Below, piece after piece: positions 1,343-20,591 of a stretch of DNA of 20,591 bases. Numbering within the stretch: position 1 is the first letter of the stretch; every line of letters starts with the position of its first letter. The position numbers and the translations under genes are program-made. Origin of the DNA: a virus; IMG/VR virus record IMGVR_UViG_3300017731_000079, positions 1 through 20,591 of that record; one strand, 5' to 3'. A model generated the notes under the pieces. The model was given only the letters and a program-made list of their open reading frames with translations, did not search any database and was not told the origin of the DNA.

Positions 1343-1740
1343 TGTCTGCAAGACAAAATGACCTTAACGCAAATACATTTGTGGGATTATCATTTCCACT
1401 TAAAGGTGATTCATTCAATGACTTTGCTTTAACAAAAACTTCTATTGAACAATCAGTTCATAATTTAAGAAATTTATTGTTGACGCAAGTTGGTGAAAGA
1501 GTATCACAGCCTGAATTTGGTAGTCGAGTAAGAGAAATTTGTTTTGAACAGATTGATGATGAGTTACCTATAAAAATTGAAACTGAAATTAAAAGAGCAG
1601 TAGCACAATGGTTGTCTTATATAACAATTAACAGCGTTGAAACTTTAACAGAAGATGGTGATAGGAGTAAAGTATTTGTAAAAATAAAATTCGTACCTGC
1701 TCTTAGTTCAGAGGAACGAGAACTTTTACTAAACGTTTAA
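1342..1740 (+). CDS. gp25: gp25-like baseplate wedge protein
   Basis: This is a baseplate wedge subunit of the GPW/gp25 family. In T4, gp25 sits at the sheath-baseplate junction and nucleates sheath polymerisation. The length, 132 aa, equals that of T4 gp25. The family core is visible at residues 44-69: NLLLTQVGERVSQPEFGSR followed by VREICFE, the usual LLT-x-GER-x-x-P-x-FG-x-x-L/V-F pattern. Residues 13-22 (FVGLSFPLKG) are the typical N-terminal strand before it. It is coupled to the preceding gene by TAATG and followed after 11 bases by the gp6-like gene, the same pairing of sheath-initiator and wedge genes seen in other contractile-tail systems. Confidence 0.92.
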   Translation: MSARQNDLNANTFVGLSFPLKGDSFNDFALTKTSIEQSVHNLRNLLLTQVGERVSQPEFGSRVREICFEQIDDELPIKIETEIKRAVAQWLSYITINSVETLTEDGDRSKVFVKIKFVPALSSEERELLLNV

Positions 1741-1751
1741 CGGATAATAGA

Positions 1752-3740: not shown

Positions 3741-3744
3741 CATA

Positions 3745-4863: not shown

Positions 4864-5423
4864 TGCCATACACAAAAGACCAACTTGAAAAAGGTAAAAG
4901 TTTATTCTATAATAACTTTAGAGAAAAGATTAGAGCAGAATATTTGAATAGATTATCTGGCTCTGCAGAAAATGATTTTCGTACTACAGAAAATGTCTTG
5001 TTATCATATGAAAGAATTGGTGAACCATTAGAGGGTATTGAAACAATAAATTTTGATGAAGAACAAGCTGTATCAATATATGAAAACTTTTTACAATCTG
5101 AGCAATTAGAATTAAGCAAATCAAAACAAGATAATAATTTACCTATTTATTTTCGAGGTAACTTATTAAACAATATAATTAATAGGGACATAAGCGAACT
5201 ACTAACTTTTGTTGTATCGACAGACTTGCCAGATGGTATAGAGGAAAGCGATGTCGTTACTAATGATGACCCATTTGATAAAACAAGATTTTTAATAGAG
5301 GATGGACTAAAAAGAAAATTTAGAAATTTAGGTGAGTTTTATGGTAGAGGATTTAAATTATCAGATTTAAAAACAATTACAAAACCAGAGTTAAATTCTA
5401 TAGTAGATGGTGAGGACTTATAA
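4863..5423 (+). CDS. phage structural-block protein, function unknown
   Basis: This 186-aa protein is not recognised. It is mostly predicted helix with a high charge density. Residues 1-50 run as a helix pair (DQLEKGKSLFYNNFREKIRA) and residues 60-95 contain FDEEQAVSIYENFL and a Lys/Gln-rich stretch. The C-terminal part (about 140-180) has FLIEDGLKRKFRNLGEFYGR and SDLKTITKPEL. There is no signal peptide or membrane segment. Both ends are translationally coupled by TAATG overlaps (with the DNRLRE-like gene and the next gene), so its product is probably needed in fixed proportion to baseplate proteins. A wedge or adaptor role is plausible but not shown. Confidence 0.8.
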   Translation: MPYTKDQLEKGKSLFYNNFREKIRAEYLNRLSGSAENDFRTTENVLLSYERIGEPLEGIETINFDEEQAVSIYENFLQSEQLELSKSKQDNNLPIYFRGNLLNNIINRDISELLTFVVSTDLPDGIEESDVVTNDDPFDKTRFLIEDGLKRKFRNLGEFYGRGFKLSDLKTITKPELNSIVDGEDL

Positions 5424-6808
5424 TGGAACAGCGTTTAGAAGAAAAAGATTTTGATATATTATATTCGGGTAAAACTGTTGACACGGATGATATTGATTAT
5501 AAATATATTTCAAGCTTTGCTATAGATAGCGAGGATGATTATGTGGAAGCTCTTATCCATGATTCAGAACAAAATTTTATACAGAGTGTGATAGTTGATA
5601 AAAATGATTATACTTACAATGAAGTTTTAGGAAAGCCAGATGTAAAATTAAATACAGGCACAATACTACGTAAGTTAGGTTATGATAGAGGTAGATATGT
5701 TGTTAAGTATAATTTTCTAAGAAAAAAGGCTGGTTCATATGAAAACATATTAGTCGATGAAAATAGTGAAAGATATGTTGGTGACTTTCATGTCATGCCT
5801 GATGGAATTATTATGGATGGCGCATCACATGAAGAAACAACTGGTAAGGTTTTACAAGTTAAAGAATTAAAATATTTTATACAAGAAATATCACCAAGTC
5901 GAAATGAGATAAGAATAGTACCACAAAAAATAAAAGATACTAAATACATAAACTCATTTGTTAATTTACAACAAAGAAATAACCAATATACTTTCAAGGA
6001 GAGTGTAAGTTTACATGAACCCCCTCAATCATCAATAGCTGGCGATTCAAAAAAAGTATATATTTCAGATAAAGAAGCTCTAAGAACATATATGGAGGGT
6101 GGTACTTTTTTTATAAACAATTCTTTCATAGAACAAGTAATCCCACCAACACCTCCAACTGGTGAGGGTAACTTGTTTGAAGAGTCTGATACAGCTGGTA
6201 CAGACCCAATCGTCGTAACATCACGCTTCGTGGTATTAGAAGAGACAACTACATTTTATGCAAGTGGGGATAAATCTTTAGATTTTATCTACAAACAAAT
6301 TACTAACAATGGTACAAATAAAAATGTGACTGTAGATGATATTTTACCAGTTGAAGATAATTTTAATTTTCAAAATGACAAAATAATTAAAAATGTTATT
6401 GGTGCAAAAACAGATGGTGATAATATTTTTGATAAGATTACTAAGTTTAGAAGACCAATAGAAGGTCAGCCTATTATACTAACATTGGGTAGTATTTCAA
6501 ATAAACCACAAAATGTAGCTTTCGAATATGAGTGGACTATATTTGGGTATGATAGAAATAGATATGGTAAGGGTAAAGATGAACAACATAGATATGACCC
6601 AATATCAGGTAGAAATGGTGGTGTAGGTACTGTGATTATACAAGGTGAGACACCAGGTTCGTTAACAGCGATAGGTACTGATAAAAAGCAGATTACCATA
6701 GAGATTTATGGTGGTGATGTAAGATTGGGTGTAGCGTTGAGAATCAGTAGACCAGCTGCAGATTTAGAGAGTAGTGTGGCTATACCTCATGCTATATTTG
6801 TGGAGTAG
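5423..6808 (+). CDS. phage structural-block protein, function unknown (461 aa)
   Basis: I do not recognise this protein. The first 180 residues are beta-rich with repeated aromatic strands (YVVKYNFLRKKAG near 92-104, YVGDFHVMPDGI, KYFIQEISPSRNEIRIVPQK), resembling an immunoglobulin-like or fibre-attachment fold. The middle contains the strand FINNSFIEQVIPPTPPTGEG, a proline-rich hinge. The C-terminal 110 residues contain YEWTIFGYDRNRYGKGK and a glycine-rich segment, then strands ending in VAIPHAIFVE. There is no signal peptide. It is coupled to the upstream gene by TAATG and followed after four bases by the large tail-protein-I-like gene. Context suggests a baseplate or fibre-connector protein; a minor adhesin is the alternative. 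Confidence 0.78.
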   Translation: MEQRLEEKDFDILYSGKTVDTDDIDYKYISSFAIDSEDDYVEALIHDSEQNFIQSVIVDKNDYTYNEVLGKPDVKLNTGTILRKLGYDRGRYVVKYNFLRKKAGSYENILVDENSERYVGDFHVMPDGIIMDGASHEETTGKVLQVKELKYFIQEISPSRNEIRIVPQKIKDTKYINSFVNLQQRNNQYTFKESVSLHEPPQSSIAGDSKKVYISDKEALRTYMEGGTFFINNSFIEQVIPPTPPTGEGNLFEESDTAGTDPIVVTSRFVVLEETTTFYASGDKSLDFIYKQITNNGTNKNVTVDDILPVEDNFNFQNDKIIKNVIGAKTDGDNIFDKITKFRRPIEGQPIILTLGSISNKPQNVAFEYEWTIFGYDRNRYGKGKDEQHRYDPISGRNGGVGTVIIQGETPGSLTAIGTDKKQITIEIYGGDVRLGVALRISRPAADLESSVAIPHAIFVE

Positions 6809-6812
6809 TTAG

Positions 6813-9800
6813 ATGGCTAATAAACAATTTAAAGTAAAAGGTTTAGAGGGTATTGACAATCAGGTCACACCTACCACTAATATCACAATTGAGATAAGCC
6901 CAAGTGTATATGGATTTTTTACTACCAATACAGAGGTAATTTTTGAAATTAATGGTGTTCGCACAGATTGGCCGATGGAAGATGTACTGCCCGCAGAAAC
7001 ATATAGTTTTACCCCTCAAGAATTAGGATTAGCTGTAAGTAATCAACCTTATGAGTTAGAGTTATCGTACGAGGAGCAAAGCAAAGATGAACAAGGTGGT
7101 GATACTTTAGGTAGTGTAATTATTAAAGTGGTTGGTATTATTACACCAGTAGATGACCCAAACACTTACATACTAGCCCCCTTTGTCAGTAAAATAAATA
7201 AGATAAATTTACAAAAGGGTGAAATACAATTAGAAAGTAGTTGGAATGATTTCCAAGAAGATGTAGCGCTTGAACCTGCAGTTGGTACAGCACCTGCGAA
7301 TATTTTTAGAAATGCTAAAATATCTTTTAAGGCTAATGAAGTCAGAGACCTTAATACCTATGTTAATTTTGGAGATGACAATAAAACACTAATCACTAAT
7401 CTAAAAGCTGATAAGGAATTATTTCCTGATTCTCCATACTCTATAGTCTTAAAACTTTATAAGCCTCTTCCAGATGAAATAGAAGAAAAAGATAGTTTAT
7501 TTGTAGTAACGGAAGTCTTACCTCAACTTACAGAAACCGTTGAATTAGTACCTTACGAGCAAGAAGACGAAAATGTAAATGTTTTATTTACACCTGACCA
7601 AGTAAATGTACAATCACCAATATCAAAAAGACAAATAATTTCTAAAAACAAAGAAGACTTGATTGGTGCTGATAAAAAATTACAACAAGAAATATTAGAT
7701 AAGTTTTTATCGGGTAGTGATAAGCCAGTTAGTATGAATGTTGATTATTCAAACTATGAAGAGTTTGTTAATTTTAGTTCAATTGAAAAAAGACTTGGTA
7801 ATTTTAAATACAAGTTAGAACAAATACAATCCAATACCGCTCTTAGTGCATCTAGTGTATCTTTATCGGGTGGACAATCTGATGCGATTACTTATGAAAA
7901 TAATATTAGAGAAATTAAAAGAAACTTTGATGGTTATGAAAGTTATCTTTATAATATAAGTTCATCATTTGTAACCAGCTCTGCAGAAAGTAGATTAGAT
8001 ACCTCCGTACCAAAGACTGGTGCAGGAACGTTTGCTGACCCTTATCTACCAGTAAACACGACCTCATCGCTATTTACAAATTGGTATGGTTCTAGCGCTT
8101 CACGGACAGGTCAAATATATTCTGCATCTCTATATGATAAGGAAAACCCAAATCGTTTAGTAAACTTATTACCTGAACACATATCAGCTGATTTTGATAA
8201 TAAACAATTTTTAGATTTTATGGACATGGTTGGTCAACACTTTGACGAATTATGGTTGTACATAAAATCCGTAACAGATATAACTGATAGACAATATGAT
8301 ATATCAGATGGTATATCCACAGACCTAATTTTTGCTGTCGCTAAATCATTAGGTTGGGATACACAAGATGGAAAAGATTTATTAGAGCTAAGTAGATTTG
8401 GATTTGGACAAAAATTAACTGGTGATTCATATGAATTATATACATCAGGTTCATTAGACTCTCCAGCTGAAGGTGACATATCCAAAGAGATTACTAAGAG
8501 ATTGATATCAAGTATGCCTTATATTCTAAAATCAAAAGGTACTTTGGGTTCACTTCGAGCAATCATGAATTGTTATGGTATACCAAGTTCTATTCTTAGA
8601 GTTAGAGAGTATGGTGGATTACAATTAGATAATCAAAAAGCAACCTTTGATATTGGTAGGAGGTTTACACGAGCATTAGGTTTTAGGGGTGCACAATATG
8701 TAGAGACATCTTGGGATGATACTAGCAAAGGAATTAAGCCTGAGACTATTGAATTTAGATTTAGGTCTGTATCTGGCTCCGACCAAATACTTGTACAAAA
8801 AGATGACCAATTTGCTATAAAATTAAAAGATAATGGTTCAGCTGATAACAATGGTACAGTATCATTTATGTTATCTGGCTCTGATGGTTACAAGGAAATA
8901 AGCTCTTCATTGTTGCCAGTATTTGATGGTGAGTATCATTCTGTTATGTTGAGAAAATCAAGAATTGAGGCTGAGTTATTTCCTCATCCATCTTTCGAAG
9001 TAGGTACAAATGAGGGACTTTTTAACCCACCATTTATAACTGGTAGTAATAGTGCAGAGTTTGGTAGAATAGAAATAGTCAGTAGTTCTAATTTTGCAAG
9101 AACAGGCACAAAAAGTTTATTACACGAAAACACTTCCGATACAAATACATCTTATACATTCTTTTATAGAAATCCAGATGCGAACCGCTTTCCTGGTAAC
9201 TCAGCGAGTATAACAAATGTAAGTGAGGGTCAGACATATCTATTCTCTGCCTATTGTAAAGCATCGGCTAGTTTAGTTGACTCAGTTGCCTCATTAACAT
9301 TATTTGAATTAGACAGTAATGAAGAGGTTGTGAGTTGGACTCAAGAATTTGAAAACACGAACTTTGATGGTGGTATCAAAGGTTCACAACGAGTTGGTGT
9401 AAATGAAAATGAATGGAAACAAATACAAGTTAGAAAAACAATCAAGTTTCCAAATACTACAAAATTAGGTATAAGATTTGAAAACAATAAACCATCTTCT
9501 TCAATCTATTGGGATGATGTATCAGTTCGTAGAGTAACTGCGAATAGTGATAGTATAGATGATACCTTTAATTATGACTTATTTGTCAAAAAATATGATA
9601 GTGGATTAGATAGAATAAGATTGGCATCTAAATCTAATATGATTATATCATCTTCGGTATCAGAATCATATAACGCGGCTTGGACTGGTAGTGGTGATTT
9701 GTTTATAGGTGGTAATACAACTACACCATTTAGTGCTAATAAATTATCAGGTTCATTGATGGAGTTTAGACTATGGAGTGAGACGTTAGAAGAAGAAAGA

Positions 9801-11084
9801 TTTGATGTTCACGTTGCTACACCTAAATCATATATAGGAAATACCCCATCTTCATCATATGAAAATATTGCTAGAAGATTCTCTTTTGATGACAATACAA
9901 CATTAGCAGCTGGTGGTTTTATTAGAGATGTAAAACCTGACCAGACAAATACACAATCAGGTAGTGCTCAAGGTTTTGGTGGAGTGAATACATTTGAAAC
10001 GGTAATCGATAAAACTAAAACATTAGTTCCGAATCATGGGCCAAATAGAAGGATGTCTGATAAGATACGTATAGAAGATAATTATCTGAGTGGTAGTGGT
10101 GCTAATCTATCCGTCTCCCAAAGATATGATTATAGTTCTAATGATACATCTCCGTTGGATAGTAATAAGCTAGGAATATACTTTTCACCAACCGATGTTA
10201 TTAATGATGACATTGTATCTTCATTTGCTAATTTAGATTTTAACGAATTAATTGGTGACCCAAGAGATGTATTCTCTGAGGAGTATAGTGAGTTAAGCAG
10301 AGAATCGGATAAATACTTTAAGAAATACACAGGTAACAATAACTTTTTTGAGTACATGAGTCTTATTAAAAAATACGACCAAAATATTTTCAAACAACTT
10401 AGAAAGGTTATACCTGCGAGAGCTAAAGCAAATCTTGGAACATTAATTGAAAGTAATATTTTTGAAAGACCAAAGTCACCTGTACAACAAAGTAATCCAA
10501 CAGTAGAACAATTAGATTTACGAGATACAATTAACGTATCAGTCTTAGAGCAAGAAAGTGAGACAAGTGCATCAATTGTTTCAATAGAATCGGAGTTTCC
10601 TAATTTTGAAAGTACAATAACAGCAGGTAATGATTATGTTGCTAAACCAGCATTGTATAAATTTGCAACTAACTTTAATCTTGAAGACCCTACACTTTAT
10701 GTGAATGGTTCAACAAGCTATGGTGGTTCGGATAGTGTCTTTCAAGAGATTTCTGGTTCAATAATACTTGACAATAGAAAATCATTAATCAATCGTGAGT
10801 TTAGATATTTCTATACAAGTGCGGCTGATTTTGATAATAGTAACATTTACTCATCTGATAATTTAGAAAATTTATATTCGTCAAGGTCATTGGTTGAAAC
10901 TGACTTAGACACCAATTACAGAGATAACACTGCTTTTAATAATTTATTCTACGCTGGTGTTAAAAATACACGAGACACAACAATTGATGGGGATTCACCT
11001 GTGATAGTTAGAAGAACCGCACCAACTGTAGCAATACCAGTTGATGGTGTAACATCTGACTTACAGGTTTTAGACGATAAGTAG
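6813..11084 (+). CDS. large baseplate/tail protein: tail-protein-I-like core plus LamG and CBM-like domains
   Basis: This 1423-aa tail protein is probably the counterpart of the gpI/gp7-type wedge protein. Around residues 452-604 lies a tail-protein-I-like core: HFDELWLYIKSVTDI, then ISSMPYILKSKGTLGSLRAI and MNCYGIP, ending REYGG. From about 640 a LamG/concanavalin-like sandwich begins (ETIEFRFRSVSGSDQILVQK; DGEYHSVMLRKS near 705). It is interrupted at about 723-909 by a second beta domain with the signature of a CBM4/9-type jelly roll: HPSFEVG, SLLHEN, GQTYLFSAYCKAS, and the closing IYWDDVSVRRV. The LamG resumes at about 921 (LFIGGNTTTPFSANKLSGSL, MEFRLWSETL) to about 1028. Residues 1152-1221 carry FFEYMSLIKKYDQNIF and IPARAKANLGTLIE, a motif I associate with tail proteins of Bacteroidetes phages. 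The N-terminal 450 residues are unassigned. Carbohydrate binding on the host surface is inferred from the fold signatures. Confidence 0.85.
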   Translation: MANKQFKVKGLEGIDNQVTPTTNITIEISPSVYGFFTTNTEVIFEINGVRTDWPMEDVLPAETYSFTPQELGLAVSNQPYELELSYEEQSKDEQGGDTLGSVIIKVVGIITPVDDPNTYILAPFVSKINKINLQKGEIQLESSWNDFQEDVALEPAVGTAPANIFRNAKISFKANEVRDLNTYVNFGDDNKTLITNLKADKELFPDSPYSIVLKLYKPLPDEIEEKDSLFVVTEVLPQLTETVELVPYEQEDENVNVLFTPDQVNVQSPISKRQIISKNKEDLIGADKKLQQEILDKFLSGSDKPVSMNVDYSNYEEFVNFSSIEKRLGNFKYKLEQIQSNTALSASSVSLSGGQSDAITYENNIREIKRNFDGYESYLYNISSSFVTSSAESRLDTSVPKTGAGTFADPYLPVNTTSSLFTNWYGSSASRTGQIYSASLYDKENPNRLVNLLPEHISADFDNKQFLDFMDMVGQHFDELWLYIKSVTDITDRQYDISDGISTDLIFAVAKSLGWDTQDGKDLLELSRFGFGQKLTGDSYELYTSGSLDSPAEGDISKEITKRLISSMPYILKSKGTLGSLRAIMNCYGIPSSILRVREYGGLQLDNQKATFDIGRRFTRALGFRGAQYVETSWDDTSKGIKPETIEFRFRSVSGSDQILVQKDDQFAIKLKDNGSADNNGTVSFMLSGSDGYKEISSSLLPVFDGEYHSVMLRKSRIEAELFPHPSFEVGTNEGLFNPPFITGSNSAEFGRIEIVSSSNFARTGTKSLLHENTSDTNTSYTFFYRNPDANRFPGNSASITNVSEGQTYLFSAYCKASASLVDSVASLTLFELDSNEEVVSWTQEFENTNFDGGIKGSQRVGVNENEWKQIQVRKTIKFPNTTKLGIRFENNKPSSSIYWDDVSVRRVTANSDSIDDTFNYDLFVKKYDSGLDRIRLASKSNMIISSSVSESYNAAWTGSGDLFIGGNTTTPFSANKLSGSLMEFRLWSETLEEERFDVHVATPKSYIGNTPSSSYENIARRFSFDDNTTLAAGGFIRDVKPDQTNTQSGSAQGFGGVNTFETVIDKTKTLVPNHGPNRRMSDKIRIEDNYLSGSGANLSVSQRYDYSSNDTSPLDSNKLGIYFSPTDVINDDIVSSFANLDFNELIGDPRDVFSEEYSELSRESDKYFKKYTGNNNFFEYMSLIKKYDQNIFKQLRKVIPARAKANLGTLIESNIFERPKSPVQQSNPTVEQLDLRDTINVSVLEQESETSASIVSIESEFPNFESTITAGNDYVAKPALYKFATNFNLEDPTLYVNGSTSYGGSDSVFQEISGSIILDNRKSLINREFRYFYTSAADFDNSNIYSSDNLENLYSSRSLVETDLDTNYRDNTAFNNLFYAGVKNTRDTTIDGDSPVIVRRTAPTVAIPVDGVTSDLQVLDDK

Positions 11085-11130
11085 AATTAAAACAAAAAAA
11101 ATTAATTAGAGATATTTATAATTGAATAGT

Positions 11131-11136
11131 TATAAT
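11131..11136 (+). promoter_or_regulatory. candidate late promoter (TATAAT) before the tail-fibre-type genes
   Basis: One of only two sizeable gaps in the window (11085-11158) contains TATAATAC, 22 bases before the ATG at 11159. It resembles both a sigma70 -10 box and the T4-type late promoter element (TATAAATA). No convincing -35 hexamer lies 16-18 bases upstream, which favours a late-type, -10-only promoter. The gap is very AT-rich, so a chance match is possible. Confidence 0.4.
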
Positions 11137-11158
11137 ACATTAAATCTTGGAGATAAAA

Positions 11159-11779
11159 ATGGGATTTTTAGACAACTCAACAACGACCGTAGACGCAATA
11201 CTCACTACGAGAGGTAGAGAGTTATTATCATCTGGTGAGGGATTAAATATTACAAAATTCGCTCTTAGCGATGAAGAGGTGGATTACACACTTTTTGACG
11301 TTACCCACCCTAATGGTACAGATTCTTACGGCTCAGTAATCGAAAACATGAATTTATTAGAGGCTATACCAAATCGTAGAACTTTCAATAGTTTCTTAGT
11401 GGATGTCCCATTAACGGGTGCCGGTATAGTTGTTTCTAATTTAACAAACTCTAACGTAGCAGGTGGTGCGGTAGTACCATTGTCACCTACATCAGATGGT
11501 GATGAACAATTTGTATTCACTATATCGAATACTAATGTAGTTCGTTTCCAAGGTGATGCTTTATCTAGAAGTGTACGTAGGCCAAATGTTACGCTATTAG
11601 CACAAAAAATAACAGAGAGTGCAACAGCAACAGTTTCTATATTAGGTGTCAATACAGGCTTAACTTCAATTGTAAGTGTACAAGTCAATAAGACTGAGGG
11701 TGCGTCGATAAATCCAGACTCACCAGAAAAAGATAACCTTGACCCCGCTACCGGCGTTGGTACTGGATATGGAGGTTAA
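11159..11779 (+). CDS. tail structural protein with TRGRELL-type N-terminus
   Basis: This is a probable minor tail or baseplate structural protein (206 aa). I chose ATG 11159, not the in-frame TTG at 11147, because GGAG (11149-11152) lies at proper distance only from the later start. The N-terminus has a signature I know from marine phage tail proteins: TTVDAILTTRGRELLSSGEG followed by FALSDEEVDYTLFD (about residues 33-46). The next segment, NMNLLEAIPNRRTF, completes the conserved block. The C-terminal half is beta-rich with Val/Thr strands (FVFTISNTNVVRF, TATVSILGVNTGLTSI) and ends in a flexible Gly/Asp tail. There is no signal peptide. It starts a new transcription block after the candidate promoter and is followed after three bases by the next tail gene. 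Exact location in the virion is unknown. Confidence 0.8.
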   Translation: MGFLDNSTTTVDAILTTRGRELLSSGEGLNITKFALSDEEVDYTLFDVTHPNGTDSYGSVIENMNLLEAIPNRRTFNSFLVDVPLTGAGIVVSNLTNSNVAGGAVVPLSPTSDGDEQFVFTISNTNVVRFQGDALSRSVRRPNVTLLAQKITESATATVSILGVNTGLTSIVSVQVNKTEGASINPDSPEKDNLDPATGVGTGYGG

Positions 11780-11782
11780 TAA

Positions 11783-12826
11783 ATGGCAACTTTTAAAATT
11801 TTAGATAATCAAGAAGATATCGTAAACAATAGCTCGATTGTAACATCAGGTGTTTTCCAAGATGGTGTTTCAAGTATAACTACTTTTTCTACATCAAGTG
11901 TACAAAGTGGTAGCACAGGTGACTATAGTTTAGATGTTTATAAGTTCAATCCACAATCCAACGCATCAGCATCAATTCAGTTTGGTGTAGCATACGGACA
12001 CTTTCAAGGTAGTGGTTCAGTCGGAGGTGTTGGGGTCGCTGGTGAAAGACCATCAGCAGCTGTATATGGACAATTTAATCAATTAATTAATCCTCCACAA
12101 ACACAAAAGTTTACTTTTGGTACACATGAGGCAGACGACATATTAGTGTTAACTTTCAATCGTGCAAGAATTAGAGAAACCTTGCAAAGAGGTGGTTGGG
12201 AATTACACTTAAGTGGTAGTGGTGTGCCTGGAGTGATAAAACTAATTGATGATTCTTCAACAAACAAAGGTGGTAATACAAGTAGAAGAAATTTCTCACC
12301 AGAGTATAACATCGTTAGTGGTAGTTTAACTGGCGGAACAACGATAAGAGATGAAGCTTCTGATGATAGCACATATGGTACTTATGGTTTATTTTATCCT
12401 GAAATTGGTACATTGATTTTAAATTCAAATCGTATTGAATCACAAATAGTAAAAGTTGGTACTAAAACATCATTAATCGGAAGTGGTTCTAATTCTGATG
12501 GTGGGAATAATGACGCTTTCTATGAGACAATTAAAGGTGGTGCGTTCTTCCAAGCTAAACGAGAAGAAACAATCTCATCACGACACTTCTTCATTAGAGC
12601 TACCTCAAATCGTTTCAACGCAACAACAAATGAGTCTTACTATACCGAATCAATAGCCGGTGTTAAGAGAATTATACCTGGCTTACAAAACGACCCTAAA
12701 ACTTTTATAACGACTGTGGGTTTATATAACGACGCTGATGAGTTATTGGCGGTTGCTAAATTAAGTAAACCAATTATTAAATCTCGTTCAAGGGAAGCAT
12801 TGATTAAAGTAAAACTTGATTTTTAA
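11783..12826 (+). CDS. tail structural protein with C-terminal GLYND-ELLAVAK motif
   Basis: This is a probable virion tail protein (347 aa). A strong GGAGG (11770-11774) precedes the start. The body is beta-rich with many Ser/Gly/Thr runs (GSTGDYSLDVYKF, SASIQFGVAYGHFQG). Mid-protein WELHLSGSG and TYGTYGLFYPEIGTLIL, then SRHFFIRATSNRFNATTNES, lead to the C-terminal 40 residues (308-347): FITTVGLYNDADELLAVAKL, SKPI and a terminal KVKLDF. That final block is a motif I associate with tail proteins of T4-like marine phages. The next gene repeats it in diverged form, so the two are probably homologous at their C-termini or attach to the same partner. No signal peptide. The function of each copy is not known. 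Confidence 0.8.
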   Translation: MATFKILDNQEDIVNNSSIVTSGVFQDGVSSITTFSTSSVQSGSTGDYSLDVYKFNPQSNASASIQFGVAYGHFQGSGSVGGVGVAGERPSAAVYGQFNQLINPPQTQKFTFGTHEADDILVLTFNRARIRETLQRGGWELHLSGSGVPGVIKLIDDSSTNKGGNTSRRNFSPEYNIVSGSLTGGTTIRDEASDDSTYGTYGLFYPEIGTLILNSNRIESQIVKVGTKTSLIGSGSNSDGGNNDAFYETIKGGAFFQAKREETISSRHFFIRATSNRFNATTNESYYTESIAGVKRIIPGLQNDPKTFITTVGLYNDADELLAVAKLSKPIIKSRSREALIKVKLDF

Positions 12827-12836
12827 GGGTTAGGTC

Positions 12837-13946
12837 ATGTCGTTCAAGAAAAGTCTTGAAGAATCAGATAAGTCCAAATCATCCTTTCAGGTTCATAAGA
12901 AGTTTAAGTTTACTGAAGCCGATAGCGGCAGTGGTGTATTCGCAATCCCTATAGTTCAAGGGACTGATTCTAATCTATATAATTTTTCAACCGATACTGC
13001 AGATTCAAAGACTGTTTCTGATAGTGTGTTTTATAAGACACCTAACTACGGGATGATTAATAACTTATATTATAAAGATATAAGGAACATGGGCGGTTAT
13101 ATAGATTTAATTCGTGGAGTACCTACATCATCACAAGCTTTAGTTGAATATGATTCAGAAAGTGTTTTGGACAACACAAAAAAAGTTCTACGTAGACCTC
13201 ACACACGACAACTCGGAACAACAGCTACTGTAATATCTTTACCACAAAAATTTTACGGAGAAGGTATAAAACCTTTCTCTGTATTAGTGACGGATAATAG
13301 CACAGACTCTACCTTATTATTAAGAGACGATGGCAGAGGTAATCTATATGATGTAGCTTTCTCTGCGAGTTATGCTAGTAGGTCACCTATCGCAGCGGGC
13401 AGTGGTAGTTTAGTAGGTAACGTATTTTATACCGATGGCTTTGTTGTTATAACTGAAACAAGTGAACCATATAACACAATTGGAACACTTGAGGGGAGTG
13501 ATGGTTTTTCAGTAGAATTTAAATCTACAAAAACTATTTATGAAAGAGAATATCTATGTTCGATAGATGAAAATGAATTTCAGTTTACAAACAATAAAAG
13601 TGCTAGAGTAGGTCGTAGTGGTAGTATCGAGATAGCTTATGACACATTAGCTGGCCTGAACACTTCAATAGCATATACTGCATCAACCTCATCCATCTCA
13701 ACAGAATATCCTCGTGTAGACTATGCAACATTAGGATATTCCACAAGCTCCTACGATAAAGATGGATACAATATTGGAAAAGAATTTATTGGTGAAACCA
13801 CACACAGTGAATTTTCTCCTTATGTCACAACAATCGGTCTATACAACGATGAAGACGAGTTAGTGGCAATCGGTAAACCTGCCAGTCCGATAAAGAATGA
13901 AAAGGATTTATCACTCACATTTGTTGTGAGATTTGACACAAATTAA
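12837..13946 (+). CDS. tail structural protein sharing the C-terminal GLYND motif
   Basis: This is a probable tail protein (369 aa), second of a pair. Residues 328-369 (PYVTTIGLYNDEDELVAIGK, then PASPI and FVVRFDTN) are clearly related to residues 308-347 of the preceding protein. Just upstream, IYEREYLCSIDENEFQFTNN matches a conserved strand of marine-phage tail proteins. The N-terminus is charged and helical (SFKKSLEESDKSKSSFQVHK), followed by beta-rich sequence with YYKDIRNMGGYIDLIRG and KFYGEGIKPFSVLV. No signal peptide or membrane segment. It closes the structural block: the next 112 bases are non-coding and the genes after them encode envelope-directed proteins. A tail-tip, collar or fibre-attachment role is possible. 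Confidence 0.8.
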   Translation: MSFKKSLEESDKSKSSFQVHKKFKFTEADSGSGVFAIPIVQGTDSNLYNFSTDTADSKTVSDSVFYKTPNYGMINNLYYKDIRNMGGYIDLIRGVPTSSQALVEYDSESVLDNTKKVLRRPHTRQLGTTATVISLPQKFYGEGIKPFSVLVTDNSTDSTLLLRDDGRGNLYDVAFSASYASRSPIAAGSGSLVGNVFYTDGFVVITETSEPYNTIGTLEGSDGFSVEFKSTKTIYEREYLCSIDENEFQFTNNKSARVGRSGSIEIAYDTLAGLNTSIAYTASTSSISTEYPRVDYATLGYSTSSYDKDGYNIGKEFIGETTHSEFSPYVTTIGLYNDEDELVAIGKPASPIKNEKDLSLTFVVRFDTN

Positions 13947-13975
13947 TCCCCCAAGCCATATTTTTTCAAGATATA

Positions 13976-13981
13976 TATAAT
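13976..13981 (+). promoter_or_regulatory. candidate promoter (TATAAT) ahead of the envelope-gene block
   Basis: The 112-base gap 13947-14058 is the longest non-coding stretch in the window. It contains a very AT-rich run at 13971-13990 with TATAATA at 13976-13982, the same heptamer as in the other gap (11131-11137). The site lies 83 bases before the TTG start at 14059. No clear -35 is visible. AGTCTA occurs twice (14000-14005 and 14014-14019), which could be an operator-type direct repeat or chance. Confidence 0.35.
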
Positions 13982-14058
13982 ATTTATATAGTGAAATAAA
14001 GTCTATACTTTTTAGTCTAAAAGGTTACTAATTTTTTTGAAATATTAGGAGATTTACA

Positions 14059-16971
14059 TTGCGTAAATTTTTATTGACTCTGTTAATGGTTATGGGTTTT
14101 GCATACTCTCAGACACCAATTATCAGACTCATGCAATCGAGAACATATAAGACACCAAAGTTTTGGTGGAGAGACCAAGTGACTCAAGACTTGAGAACAT
14201 ACTTGGCTGACGATACCTCAACCCCTGCCTATAAGAATAATAACTTTGACGCTTGGAGAGATTCTGTAATGACAGTAGCCGTCACACTTGATGACAATGG
14301 TGCTAGTGTCACGGCCTTTCGTTTAGATTTAGTGTTCGATAATGATTTATTTACTTGGGACAATACAACAACTACAGGACACGACTCGACGCGGGTTGAA
14401 AAGGGAGCTTATATCGCTGGTTGGACTGAGGGTGATAATGGAGAGAATGGTCATCATTATTCATATGAGGTAACTTGGTATAACAACGTTGGTTATACAG
14501 ATGGTATAGCTAGTGCTGGTAGTGAGAAATCAGCTAGTGATAGTAGATATGATTGGTTGAGAATAACTATGGTATCACACAACGGAAGTACACATACTTT
14601 CGGTAATGGTGATGGTAATCAAACAGAATTATTAAAATTACATTTTAAAGTGAATGACGTAGCTGATAATTTTAATGCTAGAAGTTTTAGGGTAGCTACC
14701 GAGTATGAGAATAATACTGGGTATTATACTTACGTTACTAATGGTAATTACGCATCAGCGTATAAGGTTTATATTGATGGTAACTATGGAACTGAATCAA
14801 CTAACCTTGATGGGGCTAGAGGTGATATAACACTACACCCAAAATTATTGGATGTTGAAGGGTACTTTAGATATGCTGGTGGTCATGGCAGAGCGGCTGG
14901 TGAATCGTGGAACACACAAGCGGAAAATACATATCCGTATTGGAAGATTAAGTTTGAGTTAGATAGAAATGAAGCTAACTTTAACCCAAGAATAACAAAT
15001 TGGTATAACTTAGAAGATATTGCTAATGATGCTAATACAGCTGACGAGGATGGAAGTGACGATGTTATCGGTGACCACGCCTCCACATTTAGATTTAACA
15101 AAAAAGCTCTCAATGGAAACACCGCATCAACTGGTGATGCTACTTTACCTGGTGAGGGATTCTTAGGTATATCATATTATGATTCTACTTACACCGATGA
15201 TAAGGGATATTATAATATTCAGTTACCAAGAAACAATAGATATCGTATGTCATTCTGGCCACCAGATGGGTCTGACGGAATACCTGGTCATACGATTCTT
15301 GAGTTGGATAGGGATGACATTACAACTGTAGCTGATGCTATAAAATCGTTTAACTTTCAATCAAGTAAACATAAAAATTATAATGCAGGTGGCACACGTA
15401 TAGATACCTTGACTGCTATAGAATACTTGATAGGTGATGTCGATGGTGATGATAAGTTTTTCTTAAATGACACATACATATTGTGGTCATACGTTTCAGG
15501 TATTATGAGTAACTATACGCACCACAACGGAAACTCTTATGAGGATTGGTCTACAATAGATAACTTTAATGGTAACAATACAAGTTACACATACTATCAA
15601 ACTGTTAATGGTCAGTCAAGACCACAGAAATATGAGTTCACGGTTTATTGGGATGAGACCACGATAGAAGAAAAGTCGAGACTTGACAGAACAAATGAGA
15701 ATCCAGCTTACTTTGTAAACAATAGTGCTGGTTGGGTGGATAGTTTGAAAGCTCCAATGACTGTAACAAAGGCTCTTGTAGATGCTCAAAAAGCATTAGA
15801 TGTATCCGGTAACTTTGTTGGTCAAATAGAAATATTAAACCCTCTAATGAATGATGCACAAACTGGTTTAGATACATTACATTTAGTATTGGGTACTGGA
15901 TATTCTGAATGGCACAAGGATAGATTATATGAACGAAATAATCAGAAGGGTAATCCTGACTATCTGATGCCTGATATTGGATATTACTTTACTGGTGATG
16001 TAAATACTACAGGTACAAAAGTTACAGAGAGTGGTGGTGACGGATATCAAAATGATATAGCTTCTAATATAATGTATCATAGATGGAAAGGTGTTAGTGC
16101 ACCAGGTCATCATGTGAATAAGTTTAATCCTACCGCTGGTTCTTTGAACAAAACAAAAATAGACTCAAGTGTTCAACCTGATGTTTATCTATCGTTACCT
16201 GCAGACTCTACTGTTAGGGTACAATCTGGTAATCAAATCGAAGTACCATTAACAATCATACCAAATGATAATGTTATTGTTGCTGGTTTTGAGTTTGAGG
16301 TAGAGTTTGATACTAGAGCGTTGAAGTTTATTGATATGAAAACCGACGTATTACCTGGCCCTTGGATGACCTATGTAAACGTACATGACCCAATAGCTGG
16401 ATGGCAAAAGGTTTCATTTGGTGGTATCGATTACTCACCTAACAATGCACCAGAGACGTATCATATAACAGCAGAAATGATAGGTCTTAAATTATTATTT
16501 GAGGCAGAGTTTCCTGAAGCAGAAGAATTATACACAGCACCTATTAAGTTTGTTGGTAAGAGTGCGGCGTCGACACCAAATGGTGAGGACTTGATTGTAC
16601 ACAAGAGTGATGGGTATGTCGAGGTATGGAATAAGTATTGGGCATTTGGAGGTTCAAAGCCAGATAGTGAAAGTATAACATACAATTATCCGAATCCATT
16701 TAAAGAAAATACAGTATTTCAATTTTACTTAAGTGAATCACAGAACGTAAAGTTGTACATTTTAAACTCAATGGGTCAGAGAATCGGAACGTTATTAAAC
16801 GAGTATGTATTTGAAGGATTACATACCTTTGACTTTACAAATGAACCAAGCATTTGGATACCTGAGATGAGTATTTATGAAAAACATCAAAAGTTAGAAC
16901 CTGGTGTTTATATTTTTGTATTACAAACGGAAAAGAGATTGAAAGCTAATAAATTTACGGTGGTAAAATAA
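14059..16971 (+). CDS. secreted multidomain protein with T9SS type A C-terminal sorting domain
   Basis: This 970-aa protein is probably exported across the inner membrane by Sec and across the outer membrane by the host's type IX secretion system. It starts with TTG, the only non-ATG start I infer here, supported by AGGAGA at 14047-14052 and an immediate signal peptide (RKFLLTLLMVMGFAYS, cleavage near residue 17). Residues 69-215 look cohesin-like (MTVAVTLDDN, TAFRLDLVFDNDLFTW, LLKLHFKV). Residues 459-482 contain a dockerin-like Ca2+-loop (GDVDGDDKFFLNDTYILW, with SYVSG). Residues 709-857 form a second cohesin-like domain (IEVPLTIIPNDNVIVAGFEF, EVEFDTRALKFIDM). Residues 875-970 match the T9SS type A sorting domain: YNYPNPF, then VKLYILNSMGQRIGTLL, GLHTFDF, LEPGVYIFVLQT and terminal KFTVVK. 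In known systems that tail is cleaved by PorU after transport with PorV. A PorV/PorQ-like gene follows two genes later. Confidence 0.85.
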   Translation: MRKFLLTLLMVMGFAYSQTPIIRLMQSRTYKTPKFWWRDQVTQDLRTYLADDTSTPAYKNNNFDAWRDSVMTVAVTLDDNGASVTAFRLDLVFDNDLFTWDNTTTTGHDSTRVEKGAYIAGWTEGDNGENGHHYSYEVTWYNNVGYTDGIASAGSEKSASDSRYDWLRITMVSHNGSTHTFGNGDGNQTELLKLHFKVNDVADNFNARSFRVATEYENNTGYYTYVTNGNYASAYKVYIDGNYGTESTNLDGARGDITLHPKLLDVEGYFRYAGGHGRAAGESWNTQAENTYPYWKIKFELDRNEANFNPRITNWYNLEDIANDANTADEDGSDDVIGDHASTFRFNKKALNGNTASTGDATLPGEGFLGISYYDSTYTDDKGYYNIQLPRNNRYRMSFWPPDGSDGIPGHTILELDRDDITTVADAIKSFNFQSSKHKNYNAGGTRIDTLTAIEYLIGDVDGDDKFFLNDTYILWSYVSGIMSNYTHHNGNSYEDWSTIDNFNGNNTSYTYYQTVNGQSRPQKYEFTVYWDETTIEEKSRLDRTNENPAYFVNNSAGWVDSLKAPMTVTKALVDAQKALDVSGNFVGQIEILNPLMNDAQTGLDTLHLVLGTGYSEWHKDRLYERNNQKGNPDYLMPDIGYYFTGDVNTTGTKVTESGGDGYQNDIASNIMYHRWKGVSAPGHHVNKFNPTAGSLNKTKIDSSVQPDVYLSLPADSTVRVQSGNQIEVPLTIIPNDNVIVAGFEFEVEFDTRALKFIDMKTDVLPGPWMTYVNVHDPIAGWQKVSFGGIDYSPNNAPETYHITAEMIGLKLLFEAEFPEAEELYTAPIKFVGKSAASTPNGEDLIVHKSDGYVEVWNKYWAFGGSKPDSESITYNYPNPFKENTVFQFYLSESQNVKLYILNSMGQRIGTLLNEYVFEGLHTFDFTNEPSIWIPEMSIYEKHQKLEPGVYIFVLQTEKRLKANKFTVVK

Positions 16972-17078
16972 TGGATGAATGGCAATTCTTTTTAGCATTA
17001 GCTATAATGTTACCAGCATTATATTGGACATTGAAGTTCATCGTGTGGTTTGCTGAAAAGGTAGAGAGAAAAAAATGA
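16971..17078 (+). CDS. 35-aa single-helix membrane protein (small gene)
   Basis: A short gene fills the gap between the sorting-domain protein and the PorV/PorQ-like gene. It starts at ATG 16971, overlapping the upstream stop as TAATG, and its TGA stop (17076-17078) overlaps the next ATG as ATGA. Coupling at both ends argues strongly that it is translated. The product is MDEW, then a hydrophobic helix (about residues 5-28, QFFLALAIMLPALYWTLKFI and on to FA), then the basic tail EKVERKK. This gives one membrane span with a positive C-terminus, expected to stay in the cytoplasm. There is no lipobox. I cannot assign a family. It could be a small accessory of the envelope block, a holin-like peptide, or a regulator of export. 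Confidence 0.7.
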   Translation: MDEWQFFLALAIMLPALYWTLKFIVWFAEKVERKK

Positions 17079-17923
17079 AAAAAATATTCTTAACATTACT
17101 TCTTTTTAGTAATCTATTTGCACAAGCAAATAATTTACTTACGATATCTCCGTCTGCGCACACGAGTTCGATTGGAAACGTAACGTTACCAATGATGAGT
17201 CCTGCTAGAAATCATATTGATAATGATAAATTTACTTTTACGAGGGTCAATTGGTTGGGTAATATTGTCGATGATATGAACTATATGCACTTTAATTTGG
17301 CTAGAGGTTCATTCGATGTATATGCATTAATATTCAACTACGGACAACAATTAGAAACAGACATAAGTGGTGTGGTTACAGGTAGGTTTTCACCTATGAG
17401 TTCAGTATGGGGTGTCAGCTGGGGAACTGTGATAAAAGGATATAACGTCGGTGTAACTGGTAAAGTTTTATCACATGATTTATATACACAAAAAACACAC
17501 GGAACCGCATTTGATGTAGCAACATACCTACCAAAAGTTTATAAAGATTTAGATGTAGATGTGGCTATAAAAAACTTTGGATTTGCTCCAACATTCGGTA
17601 CGTATAAAACAAAATTACCAACCAGCTTGAATGTAGCCATGACATATCCATACAAACAATGGATGTTCTATGAACAACATAATATTTATAATGGACACGT
17701 AACATCTGGTATGGGTGCTTCATATAAATACGAGGTAAAAAACCAGGCAACAATTTTAGCTAAAGCTGGATATTATTCAGATAAGTCGCATGAGTTATCA
17801 TATCCTACATTTGGTGTGGATTTAAAGTATGACAAATACTTTATAGGTATGAGTTATATTTATGGAGACCAGACGTTACCAGTAAGTAACACATTTAGAT
17901 TAACAATAAACTTGGAGTTGTAA
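17075..17923 (+). CDS. PorV/PorQ-like outer-membrane beta-barrel protein
   Basis: This 282-aa protein is probably an outer-membrane barrel of the PorV/PorQ family, components of the type IX secretion system (PorV shuttles cargo with sorting domains from translocon to attachment complex). It has a signal peptide (KKIFLTLLLFSNLFA, cleavage around residue 16-17). The mature N-terminus follows the family layout: LLTISPSAHTSSIGNV (like PSAR-x-x-GMGNA), SPARN where others have NPA, then FTRVNWLGNIVDDMNYMHF. Barrel strands follow with alternating pattern: YNVGVTGKVLSHDL, GTAFDVATYLPKVYKDLDVD, VAIKNFGFAPTFGTYKTKLP (the family's KNFG...LP segment), VTSGMGASYKYE, and the closing FRLTINLEL ending in an aromatic-poor strand. 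It is shorter than typical PorV/PorQ, and the segment around NPA is compressed. It is coupled (ATGA) to the 35-aa gene. Another FadL-like barrel is the main alternative. Confidence 0.68.
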   Translation: MKKIFLTLLLFSNLFAQANNLLTISPSAHTSSIGNVTLPMMSPARNHIDNDKFTFTRVNWLGNIVDDMNYMHFNLARGSFDVYALIFNYGQQLETDISGVVTGRFSPMSSVWGVSWGTVIKGYNVGVTGKVLSHDLYTQKTHGTAFDVATYLPKVYKDLDVDVAIKNFGFAPTFGTYKTKLPTSLNVAMTYPYKQWMFYEQHNIYNGHVTSGMGASYKYEVKNQATILAKAGYYSDKSHELSYPTFGVDLKYDKYFIGMSYIYGDQTLPVSNTFRLTINLEL

Positions 17924-18321: not shown

Positions 18322-18702
18322 ATGGGAATATTAGAACTCATAGCTGGTTTAATTATCGGCATTTCGATTGGTAGTTTCGACAGAGAACCTGTCTTACCAA
18401 GCGATAGTACAAAAGTTTCTCAAGCGTATTACAACGTATATTATGATGTACATTTTAGAAACTCATATTCAGACCTCTATTGGAACAAAAACTATAGGGA
18501 TTATTACTATGGTGTAAATTATTATGTAGACACACCTAAATATGTTTACATCAAACCAAAGAAAAAAAGAAGTGGTGAATACAGAAGACGTACTAACAAT
18601 GGTGGAAGTAAAGGTGGATACCGAGGTGGTGGAAGTAAAGGTGGTAACCGAGGTGGCGGTGGAAAAAGTAATGGTGGTAGAAGAACCACAAGGAGAGAAT
18701 AA
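18322..18702 (+). CDS. small Tyr-rich, Gly/Arg-rich anchored protein
   Basis: This 126-aa protein is not recognised but compositionally striking. A strong GGAG precedes the start. Residues 3-18 (ILELIAGLIIGISIGS) form a short hydrophobic anchor or signal segment without positive residues before it. Residues 36-76 are tyrosine-rich: I count 14 Tyr in 41 residues (YYNVYYDVHF, YRDYYYGVNYYVD). Residues 78-91 are strongly basic. Residues 93-126 are Gly/Arg/Ser/Lys low complexity, with a tandem GGSKGGYRG/GGSKGGNRG pair. If exported, Tyr- and Gly-rich sequence fits an adhesive, self-associating or polysaccharide-binding role, and a CsgG-like gene lies two genes downstream. If not exported, the basic tail may bind nucleic acid. 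Its stop overlaps the next start (TAATG). Confidence 0.72.
   Translation: MGILELIAGLIIGISIGSFDREPVLPSDSTKVSQAYYNVYYDVHFRNSYSDLYWNKNYRDYYYGVNYYVDTPKYVYIKPKKKRSGEYRRRTNNGGSKGGYRGGGSKGGNRGGGGKSNGGRRTTRRE
18601..18654 (+). repeat. 27-base tandem repeat, two copies
   Basis: Two adjacent 27-base units at 18601-18627 and 18628-18654 differ only at two positions (GATACC versus GTAACC) and encode GGSKGGYRG and GGSKGGNRG. The following sequence (GGCGGTGGAAAAAGTAATGG) is a degenerate continuation. This is an in-frame peptide repeat within the 126-aa protein, likely to vary in copy number by slippage or recombination. Confidence 0.88.
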
Positions 18703-19073
18703 TGAAAGATAATAAAAAGTTTTGGATATTATTTACTATAATAATAGCATTATCTGTAGGTACACAATTAGTTGGACAAGAAGTCGAAGAAACTGCAGGT
18801 GAAAAAGTAGTAAAAACAATTCAAGATTGGGATTTCAAAAAATATGAATCCGCTCATAAAAGAGCACATATGAAAATGAATCAGAAACAAGGTGCTCAAA
18901 AGAAACAAATGGTGGTGAGACAAGCTCGTAAGAAGATGAGAACACGTCGTATGATTCAGACATTAGTTGTTGCGGGTGTTTCATATTACATCGGATATAA
19001 AGTCGGTGAAGATTCTTGGATGGATAAGAAAAAAGATGGTGGTAAAAAACCAATTATATGGAGAGACAAATGA
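18702..19073 (+). CDS. small two-helix basic membrane protein
   Basis: This 123-aa protein is not recognised. It has a hydrophobic segment at about residues 7-24 (FWILFTIIIALSVGTQLV), either an anchor or a signal peptide ending near GQ25-26. The central part (about 45-85) is highly basic helical sequence (AHKRAHMKMNQKQGAQKKQM, then RQARKKMRTRRM). A second hydrophobic segment lies at 84-101 (MIQTLVVAGVSYYIGYKVG). The C-terminus is a Lys/Asp/Gly-rich tail. If both segments span the membrane, the basic middle would lie on one side and both ends on the other. Its TGA stop is embedded in the CsgG-like start (ATGA at 19070-19073), so the two are translationally coupled, suggesting a shared complex. 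Confidence 0.72.
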   Translation: MKDNKKFWILFTIIIALSVGTQLVGQEVEETAGEKVVKTIQDWDFKKYESAHKRAHMKMNQKQGAQKKQMVVRQARKKMRTRRMIQTLVVAGVSYYIGYKVGEDSWMDKKKDGGKKPIIWRDK

Positions 19074-19705
19074 TAAAAATATTACCATTAGTATTAGTAT
19101 TCTTTGGTTGTGCGGCTTCTGTATCAACCGAGCAATATGTCGGTGAGTATGAAAAACAAAAATCATTAGATGAAGTTGAAGTCACAAAAGTTGATGGTTT
19201 AAAACTATATGATTTAAAGTTTAATAAGGAGTTAGAAGAAAGATATCCTGAACTCGCTGAGAAGAGAGTTTCTATGGGTTTGGTTCAAGAACTTCAAAAC
19301 GTGATATCTTATATCGGTAGATTTAATCTGATAGAAGCCGAAAGAGATATGCAACTTTTAATTATGAATGATTTGAAAGCTAACAAAGCCAAGATTACAA
19401 AAGCTAAATATTCAGCTAGTGTTAGTATTTATGATTTCGGTGTTAACTTAAAAGAAGAGATAAAAGCTGGTAAGGTTGAAACAATCAACGAGACTTTTGT
19501 CGGTATTCAAGTAAAGTTGATTAATAACGAGAACACACAATATGTTGTCGGTAGTGGTAGAGGAACCGCATCGACTATAGGTAAGGGGTTTCTTATGAAT
19601 CCAAATATGGATTGGAACCAAAGTTCTCTCAGTTCCGCATCAAATAAAGCTATGGAGACAGCCGTAGTCAATGTTATAAAAGCTATTGACAGACGAGGTT
19701 GGTAA
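19070..19705 (+). CDS. CsgG-like outer-membrane lipoprotein
   Basis: This is a probable lipoprotein of the CsgG family (211 aa), whose bacterial members form nonameric outer-membrane secretion channels (curli) or related lipoproteins such as LpoB. I chose ATG 19070 over the in-frame 19058 because it forms the ATGA overlap with the previous gene and has GGAGAG at 19060-19065. Residues 1-14 (MIKILPLVLVFFGC) form a short lipoprotein signal with Cys14; the -3/-2 residues are Phe, so the lipobox is not canonical. Family-like segments follow: RFNLIEAERDMQLLIMND (84-101, like the RF-x-V-x-ER block), KYSASVSIYDFGV (113-125), VGIQVKLIN and YVVGSGRGTASTIGKG (158-173), and the C-terminal helix SSASNKAMETAVVNVIKAID (188-207). 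CsgG proper is longer (about 260 aa mature), so this is a compact relative. Pore formation is inferred, not shown. Confidence 0.62.
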   Translation: MIKILPLVLVFFGCAASVSTEQYVGEYEKQKSLDEVEVTKVDGLKLYDLKFNKELEERYPELAEKRVSMGLVQELQNVISYIGRFNLIEAERDMQLLIMNDLKANKAKITKAKYSASVSIYDFGVNLKEEIKAGKVETINETFVGIQVKLINNENTQYVVGSGRGTASTIGKGFLMNPNMDWNQSSLSSASNKAMETAVVNVIKAIDRRGW

Positions 19706-19710
19706 TATGA

Positions 19711-20591
19711 ATGGGGCAGAGGTTATTTAGTTTTTTATTTTTATTGAGTAGTATCTCTGCCCAATCATTCTTTTATAGTTATATAGACCCTTGTGAACAA
19801 ACAACAGTTAGGACATCCACAAGTTTACAAAACGGCACAGAGGGGTTTCAAGTCACGTACTACAATCGTACAAAATTTTTCACATTAGAACAAGTCATAA
19901 GTGGTGAGTTAGAACAATGGACTCAAGATGTATATAGAGATTTTGAGAAATTATTTCCTTGTGCAGTCAGAGTGGCTGAGGAGGTGCTATCATCGGTTAT
20001 AGCGGATAACGTTTCTGAACAATTTACTAAAAGTGATATTAGTAATGACCCAACACAGGTCAACTATGCGATTCGTTCTACAAGAGGTGAAGAAAAGTGG
20101 ATAACACAATTTAATAGTGTGTACACGGCTACATCATTCGATGGTAATAGTAGACACGATGGTAACTTTAATTTTACTGATGATTTTAAAAAAACATCTC
20201 TTACATATGGTAGAGGTTTTAGATTTAAAGCAAAAAAACAAAATGTACAATTATCTGCTAGTGGATTGACCTATCAGACTTTTGAGGGGTGGGATTGGTT
20301 ATTATCGACATCTGCAGCTAAATCATTACAAAAGAAAAATTCACAAGCTGCAGTATTAACTGGTAGTTATGGAAGTGTGAGTGGAGTTGGATTTGGTAAT
20401 ATAACAGCTTTGTATGCTATGAGGTATCCTGCAAAATTCACGTTTGGTGAGGTGACGTTCTCAAACTACATAGCTTATACACTATTGAGGTATTATGAGG
20501 GGAATATTGATGGTGGTAGATATTTATTATTGAGAAGTCCCATTATCTTTTTTCCAACCATCTCGTTTGATTGGAAGATTGGAACGGCATT
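19711..20591 (+). CDS. exported protein, function unknown, 3'-partial
   Basis: This open frame runs off the window end (293 codons plus two bases). It begins at ATG 19711; the nearby ATG 19707 is out of frame and closes after seven codons, and an in-frame TGA lies directly upstream at 19708. A GAGG lies at 19695-19698. The product opens with a typical signal peptide (GQRLFSFLFLLSSISAQ), so it is exported. The mature part has cysteines at 28 and 84 that could form a disulfide. Residues 60-110 look helical (LEQVISGELEQWTQDVYRDF, CAVRVAEEVLSSVIADNV). The rest is beta-rich with alternating strands (SLTYGRGFRFKAKKQNVQLS, FGNITALYAMRYPAKFTFGE, NYIAYTLLRYYEG, IIFFPTISFDWKIG), consistent with an outer-membrane barrel or surface beta protein. 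I cannot name a family. Confidence 0.75.
   Translation, partial: MGQRLFSFLFLLSSISAQSFFYSYIDPCEQTTVRTSTSLQNGTEGFQVTYYNRTKFFTLEQVISGELEQWTQDVYRDFEKLFPCAVRVAEEVLSSVIADNVSEQFTKSDISNDPTQVNYAIRSTRGEEKWITQFNSVYTATSFDGNSRHDGNFNFTDDFKKTSLTYGRGFRFKAKKQNVQLSASGLTYQTFEGWDWLLSTSAAKSLQKKNSQAAVLTGSYGSVSGVGFGNITALYAMRYPAKFTFGEVTFSNYIAYTLLRYYEGNIDGGRYLLLRSPIIFFPTISFDWKIGTA

Follow-up and report, generated by a model that had tools for sequence, protein, structure and literature searches.

Marine phages carry a conserved envelope module that joins a predicted type IX secretion cargo to a PorV-like protein

Results

The window, by which we mean the whole stretch of DNA analysed, corresponds to a virus record in IMG/VR with a length of 20,591 bases. 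On its plus strand, T4-like baseplate and tail genes (1342–13946) are followed by an open reading frame of 970 codons (14059–16971), hereafter the cargo gene, and then by the gene for a 282-residue outer-membrane beta barrel of the PorV/PorQ family (17075–17923). Genes at 1342–3740 matched baseplate wedge families (PHROG, E 1e-16 and 3.5e-25), so the earlier note was right to place the cargo directly after tail genes. Among relatives with a name, those nearest to the wedge protein come from the Flavobacterium phages immuto, Microcystis phage Mel-JY01, and a large uncultured phage genome. In immuto and Mel-JY01, large genes come after the homologues of tail genes K and L, with homology judged from position and size. 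In immuto, the annotation gives tail fibre and tail spike for the genes in this slot, which is filled by the cargo in our phages. A nuclease gene (phrog_452, E 2e-30; 394–888) was also observed among the tail genes.

The cargo reading frame is a real gene with a TTG start codon, and AGGAG lies a few bases 5' of this start within TTAGGAGATTTACATTG. The earlier note had allowed for a chimera of host chromosome and phage assembled at the gap preceding the cargo (13947–14058). An assembly chimera at this position is excluded by the recurrence of the junction between gene L and the cargo in 72 distinct intergenic sequences from many metagenomes. The gap contains the promoter-like element ATATTTAT (13980–13987, plus strand), a second copy of which (11112–11119) lies in the I–J gap before gene J. 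This element was present in 71 of the 72 distinct gaps (mean of 3.4 in shuffles) and is a probable promoter element of the phage group. The T4 late promoter TATAAATA was rejected as a candidate, as it occurred before the cargo without enrichment (33 of 74, compared to 32.6 in shuffled sequences).

The cargo protein consists of a signal peptide, a beta-rich N-terminal part, a dockerin-like motif recognised by eye, a cohesin domain, and a C-terminal sorting domain (CTD) of type IX secretion system (T9SS) type A. The signal peptide (residues 1–17; 14059–14109, plus strand), claimed in the earlier note, is present as read from sequence and alignment. Cleavage is expected before Gln18 under the Q-rule (PMC10653852), and this residue was invariant in 24 of 24 aligned relatives. 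The cohesin domain (residues 704–859; 16168–16635, plus strand) scored 25.1 bits against PF00963, with a gathering score of 24.1, and its fold aligned to solved cohesins in VIA-align with a Z-score of 16.5 and an rmsd of 2.4–2.6. No catalytic or enzyme domain was recognised in the cargo, and the cohesin domain suggests that it may serve in adhesion or scaffolding. The AlphaFold model of the full protein was poor (pLDDT 45). Searches of the INPHARED phage collection gave no direct match to either the cargo or the PorV-like protein.

Assignment of the sorting domain (residues 875–970; 16681–16968, plus strand) rests on NCBIfam profile TIGR04183, which matched cargo residues 877–967 with 25.8 bits (cut-off 23; E 7.6e-6). 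The same profile matched all 24 full-length relatives recovered from viral sequences (best E 1.1e-9). The motifs YPNPF, GxHxF, PGVY/PGIY, and a terminal KFT..K are conserved across the cargo alignment. Altogether, the sorting domain predicted in that note is retained family-wide, and the TIGR04183 matches speak against the non-T9SS immunoglobulin family that it had named as the alternative. The segment between GxHxFxF and PGVY, described there as longer than usual, measured exactly 21 residues in all 24 phage proteins, compared to 6 or 11 residues in bacterial YPNPF-type CTDs where it was measurable. Pfam PF18962 (Por_Secre_tail) covered only the first half of the CTD and remained below its cut-off (18.2 against 27); the profile is probably interrupted by the 21-residue segment. 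AlphaFold placed seven strands at cargo residues 872–968 with moderate pLDDT, inside the poor whole-protein model. The fold-match lists for the cargo were filled by cohesins and contained no CTD structures.

The gene following the cargo encodes a candidate shuttle protein, assigned by sequence profile and by fold. The window protein matched the PorQ model NF033711 with an E of 2.5e-10 and 39.9 bits, below the cut-off of 220. It had no match to the PorV/PorQ family model NF033709 at E ≤ 1 and exceeded no curated cut-off. Among 21 relatives, the PorQ model matched all 21, NF033709 matched 20 (best E 4.2e-30), and the PorV model matched 19. Four orthologues from the same slot exceeded the NF033709 cut-off of 90 bits (98.1, 98.2, 97.5, and 91.3), and the PorV-like members from these contigs are about 56–62% identical to the window protein. 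As the window copy itself falls below the cut-off, we call it PorV-like, meaning a homologue of the PorV/PorQ family.

A search of solved structures with the PorV-like sequence profile returned PorV (6h3i_F, E 1e-9) as its sole match. Foldseek likewise identified PorV as closest to the AlphaFold model (pLDDT 76). Fold Z-scores were 21.5 and 21.2 for PorV (6h3i_F and 8gl6_F) and 21.1 for FadL. As these values are tied, the fold alone assigns the protein to the FadL/PorV superfamily. The phage proteins group together in a single clade (support 100/100) apart from the PorV and PorQ of Flavobacteriales.

To delineate the gene neighbourhood, viral contigs were scanned three times with cargo and PorV-like proteins and once with a PorV-like profile. 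These yielded 103 loci with a complete cargo, including repeats from the same contigs; distinct 3' ends numbered 54. The PorV-like gene came next in all 50 distinct contigs that continue for at least 800 nt beyond the cargo. The order cargo, PorV-like, P, S, T, U was found in every one of the 26 with 6.5 kb downstream. A few module contigs had been retrieved through the PorV-like protein only and are therefore biased; those retrieved through the cargo were without exception. The larger point overlooked by the earlier note is this PorV/PorQ-like gene directly downstream, together with the conserved envelope module to which it belongs.

The remaining module genes of the window also lie on the plus strand. 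P129 (17925–18314), which keeps its place in the conserved order, carries one transmembrane segment and a coiled coil. The small gene Q126 (18322–18702) and the small membrane protein R123 (18702–19073) occur in some members only. S215 (19058–19705) is a predicted lipoprotein with a GC lipobox. Its lipobox Cys is invariant, and its relatives are 72–98% identical to the window protein; together with P129 it is the most strongly conserved member of the module. T (19711–20591) combines a signal peptide, a soluble domain with conserved Cys, and a predicted C-terminal beta barrel; it is cut by the window end, and the full protein in contig L002 has 326 residues. U is a predicted secreted or periplasmic protein related to S (hhalign 91.7%). 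The Gln following the signal peptide is invariant in the cargo, PorV-like, and T proteins. A by-eye suspicion that the lipoproteins S215 and U were CsgG was rejected by Pfam and profile comparison: PF03783 (CsgG) had no match in 6 phage contigs while control genomes matched, and hhalign of S and U with the CsgG of phage HTVC008M gave 1%.

The module occurs in two genomic contexts. K and L lie upstream of the cargo in 48 cases, and portal and holin genes do so in 3. In the second context, assigned by PHROGs (E 1.5e-14 and 8.3e-31), the module follows holin and portal genes in an unrelated phage type without these baseplate genes. The marker of this phage type did not occur in T4-like contigs of 53–83 kb. 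By eye, the terminase of the portal-holin phages appeared to be divided between two ORFs, which are separated by endolysin and oxygenase-like genes (L026, 3613–7176). Other genes were noted downstream of the module. A gene for a protein with a transmembrane segment and coiled coil follows shortly after it in L002 (18323–19042), with a weak match to Rz-like spanins (phrog_739, E 5e-4), and small secreted thioredoxin-like proteins were recognised by eye after the module in some members (L009, 19098–19508; L021, 18956–19339).

Divergent members of the cargo family agree at 45–59% of four-fold sites while retaining 62–93% protein identity, and S215 reaches up to 98% protein identity at 62% four-fold agreement. 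This combination of saturated synonymous sites and conserved protein indicates purifying selection on the module. Protein identity was 41–63% for tail proteins K and L, and selection on the module is, as judged from these sequence comparisons, stronger than on its neighbours. Distances between CTDs correlated with those between PorV-like proteins (0.78 over 91 pairs; 0.77 with tail genes held constant), and distances of module and tail genes correlated at 0.14–0.33; for the CTD and PorV-like distances, the correlation with tail genes was about 0.15–0.2. As the N-terminal part of the cargo correlated with the PorV-like protein almost as well as the CTD did (0.71), co-transfer rather than binding could underlie the correlation.

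Contigs L016 and L034 are 99.6% identical over their last 5.3 kb, starting just before the cargo, with a sharp boundary at position 9910 in both. Upstream of this boundary they are essentially unalignable, and their tail genes share about 40% protein identity. Two further pairs break at the same place. These breaks at the junction indicate that the module has been swapped between phages as a block.

A profile of the phage CTD was used to search bacterial genomes for likely hosts. All 30 genomes related to a Zixibacteria MAG contained many matching proteins (best E 1.3e-12), compared to few in another 30, relatives of the Flavobacteriales MAG whose bin includes a phage contig (best 5.4e-7). All 29 Zixibacteria-type CTDs extracted begin with YPNPF. 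From these matches and motif starts, the host is probably a T9SS-bearing FCB bacterium with CTDs of the YPNPF type. Gln after the signal peptide characterises secreted proteins of Bacteroidetes (PMC10653852), a rule that Porphyromonas gingivalis phages reportedly share (PMC10367356), and the presence of this Gln here points to Bacteroidetes-like processing. Marinimicrobia would fit the marine setting, and our literature search for work joining Marinimicrobia, viruses, and T9SS found none. The CTD type gives no support to a Flavobacteriales host, which had been considered on the basis of a MAG contig. That contig (L052 1–9160; NZWA01000008.1) is from a phage and contains the module; its binning in Flavobacteriales MAG NAT55 is probably an error.

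Discussion

Our data are best explained if the cargo gene belongs to a conserved phage envelope module whose own cargo is displayed through the host translocon with the help of its own PorV-like shuttle, a reading we consider likely to be correct. By analogy with bacterial T9SS substrates, we infer that the cargo would be secreted through the T9SS of the host. The infected cell would export it by Sec and then pass it across the outer membrane via the host SprA translocon. The phage PorV-like protein would collect the cargo by its CTD and either keep it at, or deliver it to, the cell surface. A phage-encoded barrel could make display independent of host PorV, or better than host PorV allows. 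The lipoprotein, the second barrel, and the protein with a transmembrane segment and coiled coil might then remodel the envelope. We consider coating or modification of the infected cell surface the most likely use. Possible effects of such a coat include superinfection exclusion, protection of progeny from re-adsorbing, and cell-cell aggregation; help in exit is possible as well.

Exit itself could also be the main purpose. The block may be a lysis-related module acting late in infection, when its cargo, barrels, and lipoproteins would weaken the outer membrane or rearrange it. A holin gene immediately precedes the module in the second phage type and follows it in some T4-like members, and the weakly spanin-like protein with a transmembrane segment and coiled coil that follows the module (phrog_739, E 5e-4) would suit this purpose. 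However, the cargo is without a lytic domain, the spanin matches are weak and driven by coiled coil, and nearness to holin may mean late expression only. We regard a primary role in lysis as unlikely.

The PorV-like barrel may instead be a FadL-type uptake channel or a porin that helps the infected cell and is functionally unlinked to the cargo. The tied fold scores of FadL and PorV (21.1 and 21.5) are compatible with such a function, and gp042 of another marine phage, HTVC008M, is annotated as an outer membrane porin. Sequence profiles nevertheless identify PorV/PorQ rather than FadL, adjacency to the CTD-bearing cargo is exceptionless, and the two genes diverge in step. An unlinked channel is thus distinctly unlikely.

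From its position, the cargo could be a virion protein, namely a tail fibre or receptor-binding adhesin whose C-terminal Ig-like domain serves the virion rather than T9SS. It occupies the slot of the tail fibre and tail spike genes of related immuto, and adhesins commonly carry Ig-like and cohesin-like domains. Yet the cargo bears a signal peptide with an invariant Gln in all 24 relatives, and it is linked to outer-membrane proteins instead of tail assembly genes. It also occurs after portal and holin genes, in phages without these baseplate genes. Moreover, its evolution is slower than that of the tail genes and uncoupled from it, and a receptor-binding role, which would call for fast change, fits poorly with such strong conservation. 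Slow evolution, the signal peptide, and occurrence in a second genomic context together disfavour identity as a tail fibre, and we judge a role in the virion very unlikely.

An assembly chimera, or recent capture of host genes onto a phage contig, would account for the one sharp L016–L034 boundary exactly at the junction, but is practically negligible given the 72 distinct junction sequences from many metagenomes, the conserved promoter-like element, the saturated synonymous divergence, and a search of about 60 bacterial genomes in which a full cargo was found only on a phage-like contig.

Returning to display through the host translocon, a bolder formulation is that the module acts as a mobile display cassette in marine phages of T9SS-bearing bacteria, composed of a type A cargo whose CTD is of a phage-specific subtype marked by the 21-residue segment, a compact PorV-like shuttle of its own, and accessory proteins of the envelope. 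Such a cassette would give these phages their own terminal branch of the type IX pathway, coating the infected cell and passing as a block between unrelated phages. We are evenly divided on this broader proposal. If it holds, some phages steer where a secreted protein resides on the infected cell by supplying shuttle as well as cargo. A shuttle dedicated to one type A CTD is not known from the bacteria studied, and the module would offer a simple test system for one.

The idea of a phage-encoded T9SS cargo is itself not new. The earlier note took such cargo to be no established category; its prediction of the cargo stands on the profile match, family-wide conservation, signal peptide, and phage context, and its suggestion of novelty does not. 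T9SS cargo in phages was already described by de Jonge et al. in 2019 (PMC6949934) and by Bellas et al. in 2020 (PMC7468147). What is without precedent that we could find in phages is the PorV-family partner: the papers listed for PorV and phages, within a literature coverage that is incomplete, include no report of one. Here the cargo idea recurs in many marine phages, in a module that is conserved, mobile, and under strong selection.

Bellas et al. reported a Bacteroidetes phage with three T9SS type A cargo genes and proposed hijacking of the host system, regarding the occurrence as unique and its function as uncertain (PMC7468147). This cryophage shares with our phages the encoding of type A CTD proteins and the proposed use of the host T9SS. 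Its cargo comprises enzymes and a PA14 protein, varies between strains, and is described without mention of a PorV-like partner, whereas here a single conserved cargo with no recognised enzyme domain belongs to a fixed module and has a PorV-family gene beside it. The ORFs with T9SS sorting domains found in gut phages (PMC6949934) are similarly sorting-domain proteins of Bacteroidetes phages, but lie in a BACON-repeat context by head genes, and no shuttle gene is described for them.

A closer relative occurs in immuto, a cultured Flavobacterium phage with related baseplate genes (41%). Its gene 15 (MW353176.1 12691–13422; L057 3692–4423; QQO91933.1) encodes a 243-residue protein with a type A CTD (47.1 bits). 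Like the cargo, it combines a signal peptide, a cohesin, and a type A CTD, and hhalign relates it to the C-terminal third of the cargo (95.9%). In contrast to the cargo, it occupies a different place in the genome and is accompanied neither by a PorV-like gene nor by the remaining module. A phage shuttle is therefore not needed for every phage cargo. Gene 15 is annotated only as a cohesin domain-containing protein and adjoins a gene for another secreted protein, gene 14. A by-eye likeness of gene 14 to the middle of the cargo was dismissed after profile comparison gave 1%.

Marine T4-like phages with a secretion-related envelope operon of unclear function have a counterpart in pelagimyophages, which encode a partial curli operon (CsgF/CsgG; PMC7029224). 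That operon belongs to another secretion system, and the module lipoproteins do not match CsgG.

Among bacterial systems, the phage barrel resembles T9SS PorV and PorQ (PDB 6h3i, 8gl6) in sequence profile and barrel fold. PorV shuttles type A CTDs: it collects them from the SprA translocon (PMC12618676), and it carries cargo to the attachment complex (PMC5562754). The phage proteins form their own clade and are more compact, with 275–306 residues compared to about 383–410 for PorV and 343–366 for PorQ, thus falling about 100 residues below PorV. Type B CTDs are instead collected by a PorP/SprF shuttle dedicated to them, whose gene is often adjacent (PMC12618676). The arrangement of a cargo gene followed at once by its own shuttle gene is common to the F. 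johnsoniae type B pair and the phage module, but the phage pair would unite a type A CTD with a compact PorV-like barrel rather than with PorP/SprF.
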